This document shows positions 14,864 to 47,664 of a stretch of DNA of 64,000 nucleotides, piece by piece. Source of the DNA: Halorussus pelagicus (GTDB taxonomy: Archaea > Halobacteriota > Halobacteria > Halobacteriales > Haladaptataceae); the NCBI RefSeq assembly GCF_004087835.1, contig NZ_CP035119.1, positions 2,418,001 through 2,482,000 of the forward strand, read 5' to 3'. Numbering within the stretch: the first letter of the stretch is position 1; the number at the start of each line of letters is the position of its first letter. The notes below the pieces were generated by a model. It made no database searches. It was not told the DNA's origin and saw only the letters and a list, made by a program, of their open reading frames with translations. A program made the position numbers and the translations under genes.

Positions 14864-14946
14864 CGCCGACGCTCTCCGCCGCGGCGCGCTCGGTGCGACG
14901 GACCACGGGCGAACGCTCGGTGACTCGTAGAGAATCGGGCGGGACT

Positions 14947-15061
14947 GAAAGGGGCCGACCGCTCGCGTTTACGTGGTCGTCTCAGCGACCCCTATCTCGG
15001 CCGGGCGGTGCAGAGAGGCCGAGATATGTTGGTGAGCGACCGCGAGCGGTCGGGGGCTTTC
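14947..15061 (+). repeat. 115-bp structured repeat element, copy 1
   Basis: The ends are GAAAG and CTTTC. The outer stem pairs CCGACCGCTCGCG (14955-14967) with CGCGAGCGGTCGG (15042-15054), separated from the GAAAG/CTTTC pair by a G-rich internal loop. A second stem uses GGTCGTCTC and GAGCGACC. The inner stem is TATCTCGGCC (14993-15002) with GGCCGAGATA (15017-15026) around a 14-nt loop. Copy 2 (41575-41696, minus strand) shares ends, second stem and loop, while its inner stem differs yet still pairs. It sits between livG and livF in sense orientation. Confidence 0.8.
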
Positions 15062-40225: not shown

Positions 40226-41494
40226 TCACTCCACCTGCGCGCTCGGTCGCTCGCCCGGACCGGCCACGGCCGCCTCCACCGCCGAGAGCAGTTCGTCCGG
40301 TCCCACGACGCGCCCGCGCTCGCTCAACTCGCGGTAGAGCGCCGCGGCGTCGCTCCCGGCGTAGTTGCGCTCGGCGAAGGGTCGCTCCTCGACCACGACT
40401 ACCGAGTCGGCCTCGCGGGCGGCCCGGAGGTTGGCGAGGTTGCCCGCGCCGACCTCCACGTCCGCGAGGACCGTCGCGTCCGCCCGGCGAATCCGGTCCT
40501 CGACTGCCCGGCGGGCCTCGTCGCCGACCGGCGCGAACGGTTCCTCGGTCACGGCGTCGAGACCGAGCGACCGGGCGGTTTCGAGGTCCGAATCGCCCTC
40601 GTTGAGCGCGCCGACCGACACCTCGTAGCCCGCCGCCGAGAGGACGTAGAGAAGTCGTGAAACCGTGCCGCCGCCTCCGACGACGTGAACGCGCCCCTCG
40701 CTCTCGGTCGGGCGCTCGGGCAGGGCCGTGACGTACGTGGACCCCGTGACGGGGTGACTGGAGACCACCGCGCGCGTGTCGAAAGCCGCTTCGAGGTGGT
40801 CCTCCGCGAGGACCGCCTCGGGGTCGCCGCTGGCCTGAATCTCGCCGCCAGCGAGCAGGCGGAGTTCGTCGCAGTAGTGGGCCGCCAGATTCAGGTCGTG
40901 GATGGCCGCCACGACAGTCTTGCCGTCCTCGTTGGCCAGTTCGCGGACGAGTTCGAGCGTTCGCACCTGATGGTTGATGTCGAGGCTCGCGGTCGGTTCG
41001 TCCAGCAAGAGTGCGGGGGTGTCCTGCGCGAGCGCGCGTGCCAGTAGGACGCGCTGGCGCTCGCCGCCCGAGACCGCCGTAATCGACCGGTCGGCGAAGT
41101 GGTCTACCTCGGTTCGCTCCATCGCGGCCTGCACTCGCTCGCGGTCGGACTCGCCCCCGTCGGAGGGTCCCGAGAACCGCGACCGATAGGGGTGGCGACC
41201 CATCGCCACCACGTCCTCGACCGGGAAGTCGAACGAGAGCGTCGTGTCCTGCGGGACGACTGCGACCCGGCGACTGGTCTCTTTCGAAGCCAACGAGGAA
41301 ACGGAATCGCCCGCCACCCGGACCTCGCCGCGGTCGGGAGTGAGGACGCCGTGAATAGTCCGGAGCAGAGTGGTCTTCCCGGCACCGTTTGGACCGACCA
41401 AGCCGACGAACTGGCCGTCCTCGATAGTCGTTGTCACGCCGTCGAGGATGGCGTTCTCGCCGAGTCGGACGGATACGTCGTCTATCTCTATCAT
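40226..41494 (-). CDS. btuD: Cobalamin importer ATPase (BtuD-like) with C-terminal extension
   Basis: 422 residues. The ABC domain (1-255) has Walker A GPNGAGKTT (34-42), signature VSGGERQR (141-148), Walker B LLLDEPTASLD (162-172) and H-loop IHDLN. The segment after residue 266 is an extra Rossmann-like domain (VHVVGGGGTVSRLLYVLSAAG) without a named function. This is the BtuD-type layout of haloarchaea; the importer was characterised in Halobacterium salinarum. The gap to btuC is 335 bp and contains the structured repeat copy 2. Iron-siderophore transport is the main alternative. Confidence 0.8.
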   Translation of the reverse strand: MIEIDDVSVRLGENAILDGVTTTIEDGQFVGLVGPNGAGKTTLLRTIHGVLTPDRGEVRVAGDSVSSLASKETSRRVAVVPQDTTLSFDFPVEDVVAMGRHPYRSRFSGPSDGGESDRERVQAAMERTEVDHFADRSITAVSGGERQRVLLARALAQDTPALLLDEPTASLDINHQVRTLELVRELANEDGKTVVAAIHDLNLAAHYCDELRLLAGGEIQASGDPEAVLAEDHLEAAFDTRAVVSSHPVTGSTYVTALPERPTESEGRVHVVGGGGTVSRLLYVLSAAGYEVSVGALNEGDSDLETARSLGLDAVTEEPFAPVGDEARRAVEDRIRRADATVLADVEVGAGNLANLRAAREADSVVVVEERPFAERNYAGSDAAALYRELSERGRVVGPDELLSAVEAAVAGPGERPSAQVE

Positions 41495-41829
41495 CGGTTT
41501 CTACGTGGGGTTTCGGTCGTCGGAGTCGTGAGAATCGTCGGAGCTGTGACTGTCGCCGGAGGAACGTGGTTTTAGAAAGCCCCCGACCGCTCGCGGTCGC
41601 TCTGCGGGATACTCGCGCCTCTCGGCAACGCCCGGCGCGAGTAGTGCCCGCAGAGACGACCACGGGTCGAAGACCCGCGAGCGGTCGGTCCCTTTCATCC
41701 ACCCACACGGTAGTCGGTAGGAGTTAGCGCGTTCCCGTCGGCTGGTCGGTTGAGCGTTCGCCTGCCAGTTGGTCGGCCGAGCGCATCCAATCGAACGTCG
41801 TCGCCTTGCGCGCGTGTCCAAATCCCGTC
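41495..41829. other. 335-bp gap inside the btu operon
   Basis: No gene is supported. The gap contains the structured element (41575-41696) in its middle. The right part (about 41700-41829) encodes nothing convincing on either strand. All neighbouring genes here run on the minus strand. Confidence 0.5.
41575..41696 (-). repeat. 122-bp structured repeat element, copy 2
   Basis: Minus-strand orientation relative to copy 1, so it is sense to the btuC-btuD transcript. The ends GAAAG/CTTTC and the 13-bp outer stem CCGACCGCTCGCG are the same. The inner stem is ACTCGCGCC (41611-41619) with GGCGCGAGT (41634-41642). The loop 41620-41633 is 12/14 identical to that of copy 1. It carries one additional hairpin (CGGGTC/GACCCG, about 41663-41677). 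A 28-nt end segment is identical in both copies. Confidence 0.8.
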
Positions 41830-42942
41830 TCACAGCGCATGCACCTCCCGCGTGCGGAGGAGATAGAGGAAGAAGGGCGCGCCCAGAAACGCAGTCACGA
41901 TGCCGACTGGTAGCTCCGCCGGTCCCGAGCGCGCCAGCGTGTCCGTGGCGACGAGGAACGTCGCGCCAGCGAGCGCGGAGGTGGGGAGTAGGATTCGGTG
42001 GTTCGGGCCGACGAGCAGGCGCATGACGTGGGGCACCACGAGACCGACAAAGCCGATGACGCCGGTGACCGCAACCGCCGCGCCGGTCATCACGCTGGCG
42101 ACTCCGAGCAGGAGGCGCTTGGTGCGCTCGACTTCGACGCCGAGCGCGTGGGCGTCCTCCTCCCCGAGCAGGAGGACGTTCAGGTCCTCCGCGTACGCGT
42201 AGAGAATCATGAACCCGGCAAGCGCGACCGGGAGGACCATCGTCACGTCGGTCCACGACGCCAGATGGAGGTGGCCCATCAACCAGTAAACCGCCCGGCG
42301 GAGGCTCTCGCCGCTCTGGAGGAGTAGAAAGGAGACGACTGCGCCGAGGAACGTCTGGACCGCGACGCCAGCGAGCAGGAGCGTTGCGACGGGCGTCCGG
42401 CCGTCCTCGGTGGCGAGCAGGTAGACGCCGAAGGCGGCCCCGAGCGCGCCGAGGAACGCCGCGGCCGGGAGCGCGAGGTGGGGCGCGAACGGGAGCGCGA
42501 AGGGAAGCGCGATGGTCGCCACCGCGCCCACCGCCGCGCCGGACGAGACGCCGATGATGGAGGGGTCGGCCATCGGATTCCGGAAGAACCCCTGCATCAC
42601 GACCCCCGCCGTCGAAAGCGCGAGACCGACGACCGCCCCGAGCGCGATGCGGGGCAGGCGCAGCGTTATCACGATTGTTTGGGCGGTCTCGGGCACTGCG
42701 AAGTCGAAAATCGCCGCGAACGCGACGGTCGGGGTCGGGACCGAAATAGCGAGTCCCGCGATTCGGAGCGTCCGCTCGGCCACGCCGACCCCGGCGGGCA
42801 CGGCGACGGCGTTCAGAAGCACTTTCCCGACGACGAGATAGTCGAGCGCCACCGGCCCGATTGCGGCGCTGACAACCACGACGACCGCCAGCGCGGCGGT
42901 CAGTCCGGCCGACCAGCCGACGACTCGCGCGGAGCCACGCAT
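41830..42942 (-). CDS. btuC: Cobalamin/siderophore-type ABC permease (BtuC/FecCD family)
   Basis: 370 residues with about ten membrane segments. Family marks are [56 protein letters not shown] as the ATPase-coupling loop, and [23 protein letters not shown]. The frame runs upstream to 43284, but the ATG at 42942 fits the family and leaves the btuF promoter intact. It is divergent from the binding-protein gene and precedes btuD. Confidence 0.85.
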
Positions 42943-44787: not shown

Positions 44788-47664
44788 CTACTCGCTCGCG
44801 GACCGTCCGACTAGTAGCGCGACGGTCCCGACACCGACCGGGACGAGCGCCGAGAGACCGTCATCGGACTCTCCGGAGGCCGACGCGAACGTTGTCGTCC
44901 CTCCGGCGGTCGTCGCGGTGTCCGTGGTCGGAAGCGCCTCGGTCGTCGTGGCGACCGCATCGCCGCCGAAGTCCACGATGGCGGTGTCGAAGACGAACTC
45001 GTCGGTGGCGTTCGCGTACGGCACGTCCGTCGAACCGCCGCTCTCCACGAAGTCGAACTGCTGGTCGGCGTCGGTGTCTCGGTGGGGAACCGCGAGGAGG
45101 ACCTGTCGGCCCGAGAGGTCGGCGAGTAGCGACACCTCGACCGCCTCGTATTCGCCCGGCGCGAGGTACTCCGAGACGCCGACGACGTTCCCGTTCGCGT
45201 CGTAGGCCGCGACGAATCCGCCCTCGGGCAGGACCGCCGACTCGACGACGACCGCGTCGTCGGCGCTCTGGTTCTGGAACGTGACGCTCGCCGGGGTCAC
45301 GGTCGTGGTAGTTTCCGTCGCGGTGGTTGTGGTGGTTTCCGGTGTGGTAGTTGCGGTGGTCGTGGTGGTTTCTGGCGTCGTGGTTGTCGTGATTTCCGTC
45401 GTTGTAGTTGTAGGCGTCGCGGTTTCCGTGGTGGTCTGTTCGGTCGTCGTCTCGGTCATCGCGGTTGTCGTCGTTTCCGCTGTCGTGGTGGTCTCCTCAG
45501 TCGTAATGGTCTCGGTCGTCGTTTCTGCTGTCGCGGTCGTCTCCTCAGTGGTCTCGTCCGTGGTCGTGGTCTCCTCCGTTATCGTGGTCTGAGTCGTCGG
45601 GGTTGCGGTCGTAGTTGTCTCCTCTGTCGTCGGGGTTGCGGTCGTTGTCTCAGTCGTGGTTGTCGTCAGGTTTCTCGTAGTCGTCGCCTCGGTTGTCGTG
45701 GTTTCAGTTGTCTTCGGAGTTTCCTCGGTCGTTGCCGTAGTCGTGGTCGTCTCGATAGTCGCGGTTTCGGTCGTCTCGGTCGTCGTCGCGGTTGTCTCCG
45801 TGGGTTCGATTACGGTCTCCTGAATCGGGGTCACGGTCTCCGTGGTCGTGGTACGAACCGTGGTCGTGCCCGGCGTCTCCGTCGGTTGCGTGGCAACCAC
45901 CTCCGCGGCGGCCGAGGCGGCGCTCTGCTGCAACTCCTCGGGGGGCACGTCCTCGCCCTCAGCGACCAGTTCCGCCGTCTCGACCGCGGCCTGCCGACTC
46001 GCGTCCAGTATCTCCGCGGCCGCGGTAACGCCCTCCTCGGCGGCGGACTCCGCGGCCCCGGCGGCCGCGCCGCTGGTGATAGCGAGGGTCTGCTCGGCGC
46101 TGGCGTCCTCGGTCTCGGCGGCCGACGCGACGCCGCCGGAGGCGGCACCGCGGGCGGCGGCCTGTATCTGGGTGACGCTGGCCACCTGACTCTGCGAGAC
46201 GCTTCCGGTCGCGGCCCCCTGCGCGGCGGCGAGAATCTGGACCTGCGTCACGTCCACGCGCTGACTCTGGACGACCGCACCGGCGGCCGACCCCTCCGCC
46301 GCGGCCTGAATCTGCGCGACGTTCGCGGACTGGGACTGGACCAGCGACCCGAACGCGGCCCCGCGAGAGGCCGCCTGCACCTGTCGCACGTTCACGGTCT
46401 GGACCTGCGTCACGCCGCCCTTGGCCGCGCCGAGCGCGGCGGCCTGCACCTGCTCGACGGTCACCTCTTGGCGCTGGACGACGGACTCGACCGCGCCGGT
46501 GGCCGCGCCCGCGGCGGCGACCTGAATCTGGACGACGTTCACTATCTGGACCTGCACGACCGTCACCTTGGTCAGCGCGCCGCGGGCCGCGCCGAGCGTC
46601 GCGGCCTGCACTTGCTCGACGTTCACCCGCTGGACCTGCTTCACCACTCCGCCTTGGGCCGCACCCTCGGCGGCGAGTTGTATCTGCTCGACGGTGACGC
46701 GCTGGGTCTGACTGATGGCACCCGAGGCCGCCCCGCGGCAGGCCGCCTCGACCTTCTCGGCCGGGACCTCCCTCGGCTTGGGCTTTTTCACGCCGCCCTT
46801 GGCCGCGCCGAGGGCGGCGACCTGCACCTGCTTGACGTTCACTCGCTGGACCTGGACGAGCGCGCCGCCCGCGGACCCGCGCGCGGCCGACTGAAGCTGA
46901 CGAGCGCCGACGCGCTGGTGCTGGGCGAGCGACCCGAACGCCGCGCCTTGGGCGGCCTCCTGCACCTTACCGATGGCCGTCACGTCGTTCCGACCGGCCG
47001 AGGTCGCCGCGCCGTGGGCCGCCCCGCGCGCCGCGACCTGTATCTGGGTCACGCTCGCGGTCTGTCGCTGGGCGACCGACCCGTGGGCCGCCCCGAACGC
47101 CGCACCTTGCACTTGGACGATTTCGGCGGCTTGGGTCTGGACGATGCCGCCCGTCGCGGCCCCGCGGACCGCGGACTGAATCTGGCGGACGGTCGTCTCT
47201 TGGGACTGCAACAGCGCGCCGTGGGCCGCTCCGCGCGCCGCGACGAGAACCTTGCCGACGTTCGCGTCGGAGTCGTTCGGTGCGGCCGCGACCGCACCGC
47301 GGACCGCCGCCGTCCGCTTTCGGTCGGGAACGGTCGCGCCCTGAATCTCGGCGAGTTGCGCACCCTGTCTGGCACCGAGTTCGGCCGCCTCGCGCGGCGT
47401 CAGTTCGCCCACGTCCTGTTCGGCCCGCGCCGCGTTCGCGGGCGCGACGCCGAGTCCGGTCGCGTCGGTGTTCGGAAGCGTTTCGAGCGTTCGCACGACT
47501 TGCAGAGCGTCGCCAGTGCGAGCCGATTCGGCGTCTCCTTGCGCTGTCGATTGGTTCGACTGCGCCGCGTCGTCTCCGGCCGAGAGACCCACGGCGGTCG
47601 GGGCCGCGAACCCGGCGACGAGGATGACGACGAGGACGAGCGCGCGAGCGCGATTCGAGTGCAT
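44788..47664 (-). CDS. Large repeat surface protein with Thr-rich stalk and C-terminal anchor
   Basis: 958 residues. A Sec signal (about 1-26) is followed by sixteen repeats of 23 residues on average (145-513) with consensus GAAxG..[VL]xQxQ...VxQ[VI]QxAA. A helical Ala/Glu-rich part (about 515-592) leads into a stalk of almost pure Thr with Glu and Ala (593-790), a likely O-glycosylated rod. A beta-rich domain (about 792-896; DUF7282-like, from memory) and a C-terminal hydrophobic segment (939-953) finish it. The repeat part looks like a solenoid or self-assembling array. No enzymatic site is visible. It is convergent with gar1. The shadow frame on the plus strand is spurious. Confidence 0.8.
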   Translation of the reverse strand: MHSNRARALVLVVILVAGFAAPTAVGLSAGDDAAQSNQSTAQGDAESARTGDALQVVRTLETLPNTDATGLGVAPANAARAEQDVGELTPREAAELGARQGAQLAEIQGATVPDRKRTAAVRGAVAAAPNDSDANVGKVLVAARGAAHGALLQSQETTVRQIQSAVRGAATGGIVQTQAAEIVQVQGAAFGAAHGSVAQRQTASVTQIQVAARGAAHGAATSAGRNDVTAIGKVQEAAQGAAFGSLAQHQRVGARQLQSAARGSAGGALVQVQRVNVKQVQVAALGAAKGGVKKPKPREVPAEKVEAACRGAASGAISQTQRVTVEQIQLAAEGAAQGGVVKQVQRVNVEQVQAATLGAARGALTKVTVVQVQIVNVVQIQVAAAGAATGAVESVVQRQEVTVEQVQAAALGAAKGGVTQVQTVNVRQVQAASRGAAFGSLVQSQSANVAQIQAAAEGSAAGAVVQSQRVDVTQVQILAAAQGAATGSVSQSQVASVTQIQAAARGAASGGVASAAETEDASAEQTLAITSGAAAGAAESAAEEGVTAAAEILDASRQAAVETAELVAEGEDVPPEELQQSAASAAAEVVATQPTETPGTTTVRTTTTETVTPIQETVIEPTETTATTTETTETATIETTTTTATTEETPKTTETTTTEATTTRNLTTTTTETTTATPTTEETTTTATPTTQTTITEETTTTDETTEETTATAETTTETITTEETTTTAETTTTAMTETTTEQTTTETATPTTTTTEITTTTTPETTTTTATTTPETTTTTATETTTTVTPASVTFQNQSADDAVVVESAVLPEGGFVAAYDANGNVVGVSEYLAPGEYEAVEVSLLADLSGRQVLLAVPHRDTDADQQFDFVESGGSTDVPYANATDEFVFDTAIVDFGGDAVATTTEALPTTDTATTAGGTTTFASASGESDDGLSALVPVGVGTVALLVGRSASE
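45295..45888 (-). repeat. Thr-rich low-complexity stalk coding segment
   Basis: Residues 593-790 of the surface protein, roughly 65 percent Thr, with TTTTE, TTEE and TATP motifs. At DNA level this is an ACC/ACG/ACT/GAA-rich low-complexity tract, a likely site of length variation by slippage. Confidence 0.85.
46126..47244 (-). repeat. Sixteen 23-residue (69-bp) repeats
   Basis: Glycine of the GAAxG or GSAxG motif falls at residues 145, 168, 191, 214, 240, 263, 286, 311, 334, 358, 386, 412, 435, 458, 483 and 506. The spacing is 23 in nine of the fifteen intervals and 24-28 elsewhere. Units are diverged in DNA but keep the Gln-x-Gln and Val-x-Gln-Val/Ile-Gln pattern. Confidence 0.9.

Follow-up and report, generated by a model that had tools for sequence, protein, structure and literature searches.

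A palindrome between btuC and btuD as a probable member of an order-wide family of structured intergenic repeats in haloarchaea

The gap between the vitamin B12 transport genes btuC and btuD of Halorussus pelagicus holds an imperfect 122-bp palindrome. Most probably, this palindrome (copy 2 below) is one member of an order-wide, non-coding, transposase-less interspersed repeat family of haloarchaea whose units measure ~110 to 135 bp. We document the family, its fold and covariation, a strand asymmetry, its intergenic placement, and both gain and losses of copies.

The palindrome and its site

Within the window (the whole 64,000-nucleotide stretch of H. pelagicus DNA that we analyzed), the btuC-btuD intergenic region spans 335 bp (positions 41495-41829). 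Both flanking genes are encoded on the minus strand. Of these, btuC (41830-42942), the gene for the permease of the vitamin B12 ABC transporter, matched NCBIfam model NF007081 at 581 bits, over the cut-off, as well as Pfam FecCD. The product of the btuD-type gene (40226-41494), which carries Pfam ABC_tran, had the corrinoid ABC ATPase family NF007082 as its best NCBIfam match, with a score of 482.5 bits that falls under that family's cut-off of 537. Elsewhere in the window (44788-47664, minus strand), we observed a gene whose 958-aa product is of surface type and has a Thr-rich linker as well as tandem repeats of ~23 aa (QVQ..AA.GAA.G).

A preliminary description of this DNA had reported a 122-bp element inside the 335-bp gap, on the strand of transcription, and both statements hold exactly: the palindrome occupies 41575-41696 on the minus strand, the coding strand of btuC and btuD, and is bounded by the inverted ends GAAAG (41575-41579) and CTTTC (41692-41696). 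Our covariance model matched 41575-41701 (minus strand) with 139.6 bits (E 8e-30). The RNA fold of copy 2 reached -95.7 kcal/mol versus -66.0 kcal/mol in shuffled sequences (z -7.2), and its DNA fold had a z of -9.3. The opposite strand likewise folds well, as a palindrome should.

Read on the minus strand, copy 2 opens with the 5' strand of terminal helix P1 (GAAAG, 41692-41696), identified by the inverted ends, the fold, and pair conservation. Adjoining it is the GGG-type side of an internal loop, GGA in this copy (41689-41691), followed by the 5' arm of helix P2 (CCGACCGCTCGCG, 41676-41688), which is supported by fold and pair conservation, and by a side hairpin, GGGTC-TTC-GACCC (41664-41676). 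The inner helices and loop (41596-41663) comprise a GTGGTCG..CGACC stem, a conserved internal loop of the CTA[CT]/[AG]TAT type, and a variable apical hairpin. The strand then returns through the 3' arm of P2 (CGCGAGCGGTCGG, 41583-41595) and the internal loop's conserved GGG (41580-41582) to the adjoining 3' strand of P1, which reads CUUUC (41575-41579). Upstream companion repeats of the GCGCTCGGCCGACCAACTGGCAG type, which we call module B, lie at 41727-41784 on the same strand.

A second copy in the window (copy 1; 14942-15061, plus strand, 122.5 bits) sits between LivG/UrtD-like and LivF/UrtE-like ATPase genes and folds like copy 2. As described earlier, the extra short hairpin is confined to copy 2 of this pair; copy 1 has TTTA in its place. 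Both forms are common across the family, with bulges of either ~9 to 10 nt or 14 to 16 nt.

How constant is the occupancy of these sites? Among 17 Halorussus genomes, the btuC-btuD site was occupied in 15, with the element in sense orientation every time. The two remaining genomes bear out the earlier expectation of tight spacing and, as the proposed comparison of this interval in relatives was meant to reveal, indicate that the element can be missing while both genes stay intact: the gap is 32 bp in G009 and 100 bp in G007. We read the 100-bp gap of G007 as holding relics of both element ends. The copy 1 site was occupied in 15 of the 16 relatives that have the gene, 3 of these being weak or partial matches only. 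The liv-type site behaves like the btuC-btuD site: both are filled in nearly all Halorussus and always in sense, a constancy that speaks against a purely dispersed repeat and could reflect local function.

Extent of the family and selection on its fold

Searches with blastn and with a covariance model based on 34 copies revealed 7 to 8 copies in the H. pelagicus genome, so that both copies reported earlier are real and a count of two is too low. Matches by blastn were present in 16 of the 18 genomes of the Halorussus group, and the model counts per genome were 0 (G009), 1 (G007), 33 (G004), 84 (G001), 96 (G012), 98 (G003), and 145 (G011). G012 appears to be Halorussus salilacus, as one of its matches has coordinates identical to those in plasmid NZ_CP099994. 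Because copy number ranges from 0 to 145 inside one genus, cost, spreading mechanism, and any host use are directly testable. In a class-wide sample, the repeat was found in 86 of 194 genomes and in 42 of 65 genera; in a phylum sample of 197 genomes, for which the number from outside the order is not given, matches were confined to its own order. Plasmid records with the repeat include those of Halorussus (NZ_CP099994), Haladaptatus, Haloarcula, Salinibaculum, and Halorientalis. Full-length model matches measure ~107 to 139 nt. The conserved end of the unit is GGGACTGAAAG; distant members retain the end GGGACTGAAAGGGG, and GGGGCTTTC and the inner CTAT/ATAT motifs are kept with some variation.

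Rfam gave no match at the gathering threshold in the window and only chance matches at E values up to 10. The neighboring B12 transport genes could suggest a cobalamin riboswitch or another known cis-regulatory RNA of a B12 operon. We give that reading practically no credence and regard it as refuted, given that no Rfam match was plausible and that the same element lies beside unrelated genes throughout the genomes. Scans of IMG/VR for viral carriage returned no match, which says little because exact patterns only were used. Among the papers searched, none gives the core sequence in such a setting. We consider it quite probable that these copies form a previously undescribed, apparently mobile family of structured, intergenic repeats across Halobacteriales. 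Such a family, which Rfam lacks, which reaches 145 copies in a genome, which is shared by many genera of one order, and which shows clear compensatory evolution on one strand, matters in two ways: archaeal counterparts of the bacterial REP and ERIC elements are so far poorly described, and the family explains anomalous gaps that might otherwise pass for operon-specific regulators.

Selection acts strongly on the fold. In an alignment of 106 distinct sequences fitted to the model, with statistics that ignore relatedness, 98.4% of paired cells were kept versus 87.5% after shuffling; for the individual helices, the values were 99.5% (P1) and 98.3% (P2). Double compensatory changes were present in 23 of 34 pairs, including 9 of the 13 pairs of P2. 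The covariation score was 0.291 versus 0.083, a value that none of 500 shuffles reached, and sliding the pairing partners lowered pairing to ~40%. Non-Watson-Crick cells were G.U in 41 cases versus A.C in 12 (again in the model-fitted alignment, with kinship ignored). This excess of G.U argues that the modeled strand is the constrained one, either as RNA or as single-stranded DNA.

Genomic context, turnover, and a proposed mechanism

We analyzed the surroundings of 94 copies, nearly all of which came from G012, G003, G006, and G004 and a handful from G011 and G001, using genes called with a home-made gene caller. All 94 were intergenic, overlapping no called gene, at a coding density of ~78 to 82%. 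Their neighboring genes were arranged as tandem with the copy in sense (33), tandem with the copy in antisense (19), divergent (25), or convergent (16), and 1 copy was unassigned. This mix is near the background mix of gaps, and the bias of 33 sense versus 19 antisense copies was not significant (P = 0.07). In a runs test on two chromosomes, orientation was not clustered (z -1.8 and 0.3), and on this ground a replication-strand bias was rejected.

These frequencies bear on the earlier proposal that an intergenic RNA structure tunes the two cistrons, in which a hairpin in the btuC-btuD mRNA would set processing, stability, or attenuation and thereby fix the BtuC:BtuD ratio. In its favor are a structured element that lies on the coding strand between the permease and ATPase genes, at a site kept in 15 of 17 species, the similar behavior of the liv-type site, and a fold conserved in the manner of an RNA strand. 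So much of it stands. However, under vertical inheritance each site counts as only one orientation event; over the 94 copies there was no significant sense bias and the contexts were those of ordinary gaps, and G007 and G009 do without the element while their genes are intact. We thus regard an intercistronic regulatory RNA as unlikely. The stronger claim, that the element was made to set btuC:btuD stoichiometry, finds no support: the element is a dispersed repeat with no significant orientation preference. A local effect on expression that followed insertion, as a side effect, is possible.

No TATA-like box was present within 60 nt upstream of any of the 94 copies, and T-runs were not enriched downstream of them; a role as transcription terminator or as a carrier of its own promoter was accordingly rejected. 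Could the copies instead be an independent multi-copy family of small non-coding RNA genes that function in trans? The very strong strand-specific covariation, the conserved unpaired positions across genera, and the one conserved copy that each Haloarcula plasmid carries agree with this idea. The lack of a promoter-like signal upstream of the 94 copies speaks against it, as do the missing Rfam match and a copy number that falls to 0 or 1 in two species at no evident cost. We hold it to be a little less likely still than the intercistronic reading.

The copies often keep company with other repeats. For 60 of the 94 copies (64%), a B-type motif lay no more than 150 nt upstream, versus 6% of random positions, and repeated 3' half-hairpins were found downstream of 33% of copies versus 2% of random positions. 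Several cores (L072, L073, L074, L129, and L183) enclose another hairpin repeat, GACCGTCTCGTGAGCGAAGCGAACGAGACCTCGGAAGTCGCAGCCCGC..GAGCAGGACCGTCTTCCGG, which replaces or interrupts one arm. A conserved module A (CGCGCGAGGGATGAG...CAGTCGGTTGGGGAGG), observed among others in gaps L123, L126, L128, and L131, sometimes lies upstream of the core; it is separable, because an indel between L182 and L192 (G002 and G016) removes module A alone. In G003, GGAGTC hexanucleotide tandem arrays (L160, 3002-3322, and L165, 3231-3539) directly adjoin two repeat copies and are 90% identical over 321 bp.

Comparison of sites between genomes indicates turnover, with one lineage-specific gain and several losses. 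The sister genomes G002 and G016, which are ~93% identical, have six sites in common; one insertion is present in G002 only, where G016, G007, G004, and G000 have short spacers. Two sites of the H. pelagicus genome are empty in G007, which has a possible 3'-end relic at a third. Recent copies were also found: G003 has three that are identical over 120 nt and lie near one another, and G012 has a pair whose members are 97% identical over 198 bp but differ in their upstream flanks. Mean identity was 0.70 for copies at orthologous sites, 0.70 for copies at different sites across genomes, and 0.74 for copies within a genome, a pattern suggesting that the occupants of old sites keep being rewritten, by either conversion or replacement. 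We identified no mobilizing enzyme, and the recent copies inspected had no visible target-site duplication and no exactly resolved empty-site junction; for these reasons, transposition itself is something we infer.

Haloarcula plasmids carry one core copy each, in a conserved noncoding region of ~1.2 kb that corresponds to L110 5480-6760 in pNG500 of Haloarcula marismortui and has counterparts in L111 to L114 and L116. The gene adjoining this region is annotated as a SOSS-B-type single-strand-binding protein, an annotation that stands without Pfam confirmation, and a T4SS-type gene lies a few kilobases from the plasmid copy. The upstream part of the region, outside the core, matches the small rolling-circle plasmids pNB101 and pHLAJ5II. 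Presence of the core itself in rolling-circle plasmids was rejected, as the weak model scores there are noise and the shared segment is another one. The Haloarcula context hints at a role in single-stranded DNA. One could go further and derive the family from a single-strand hairpin of plasmids, whether a priming site, a single-strand origin, or a transfer origin; it would now spread in chromosomes via a folded single-stranded DNA or RNA intermediate and would be homogenized in each genome by conversion. We view this scenario as speculative and rather improbable.

Our favored account of the repeat family runs as follows. One strand forms a long interrupted hairpin, with a GAAAG/CTTTC base helix, a G-rich internal loop, a 13-bp helix, an optional side hairpin, and inner helices. 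Copies are placed in intergenic DNA, where they are long-lived, undergo losses, and are now and then gained, and they appear to exchange sequence inside a genome. A trans-acting factor may recognize the strand-specific fold for dispersal or maintenance, either in RNA form or in single-stranded DNA that replication or repair exposes. The btuC-btuD copy would then be a long-standing occupant of its site, one that widens the spacer and would be cotranscribed, and any influence it has on how btuD is expressed would have arisen as a by-product or been adopted later.

Comparison with known repeat systems

Bacterial repeats of the ERIC/IRU, RUP, and Correia types are imperfect palindromes of ~100 to 150 bp that lie in intergenic DNA in both orientations and have no promoter of their own. 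Compared by description, the present repeat resembles them in size, imperfect palindrome, intergenic location, use of both orientations, and lack of a promoter; it differs in being archaeal, in its compensatory evolution, and in its conserved G-rich internal loop.

The REP/BIME elements of bacteria with their RAYT proteins are likewise dispersed, palindromic, intergenic, present in high copy, and composite with companion repeats. However, REP units measure 20 to 40 bp and carry a GTAG/CGTC tag, whereas the unit described here, ~120 bp with the end GGGACTGAAAG, is 3 to 6 times longer, has a complex multi-helix fold, and requires no Y1 protein in high-copy genomes. The co-occurring Y1 (TnpA-REP) of REP/RAYT pairs was also not found: Y1_Tnp (PF01797) was not detected in G001, G003, G004, G005, G008, or G010, among which G001, G003, and G004 hold 84, 98, and 33 copies. 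This result bears on the idea that an IS200/IS605 Y1 transposase of the RAYT type moves the repeat as a REP-like element, or else that the repeat is the right-end RNA of a TnpB element. In favor of that idea, the repeat is palindromic, dispersed, and intergenic, and PATE elements of Haloquadratum have such an origin (PMC3119063). Because G001 and G003 are high-copy genomes without Y1, the transposase is not needed as a current driver, and it was excluded as a necessary one. An omega RNA at the 3' end of tnpB was rejected as well, since no model match fell in any of the four TnpB loci that the H. pelagicus genome contains. We judge a Y1 or TnpB origin very unlikely.

Haloarchaeal PATEs are themselves transposase-less mobile repeats with palindromes, but they have no terminal inverted repeats and are akin to IS605-type ends, whereas the present repeat is a single terminal-to-terminal hairpin. 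With respect to MITEs, we identified no cognate transposon, and no target duplication was resolved at recent copies, which offered no exact empty-site junction.

Among described kinds, the closest is the SMR (small mobile repeat) class of Haloquadratum walsbyi. Its SMR-A type (HqIRS42/43/55) is ~110 bp long and too short to code, with prominent inverted terminal repeats unrelated to transposons, no target duplication, and unexplained mobilization (PMC3119063). The present repeat is similar in length (~107 to 139 nt, with no gene called over 94 copies); its own inverted ends pair in P1 and P2 at the frequencies given above (99.5% and 98.3%). It is also non-coding, occurs in tens of copies, and has a haloarchaeal host, and its presumed mobilization is likewise unexplained. 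SMR types are commonly >95% identical and target IS605/PATE palindromes (PMC3119063), whereas the copies described here are ~70% identical, order-wide, located in ordinary intergenic DNA, and endowed with a strand-specific covarying fold. The repeat is thus set apart from HqIRS42/43/55 by their descriptions, not by their sequences; the H. walsbyi plasmid PL47 gave no model match. Given that the repeat has no Rfam family and does not qualify as a RAYT-linked REP, we file it under transposase-less interspersed palindromic repeats, and with good though not complete confidence we interpret the btuC-btuD element as a transposase-less structured repeat of the REP/ERIC/SMR-like kind.
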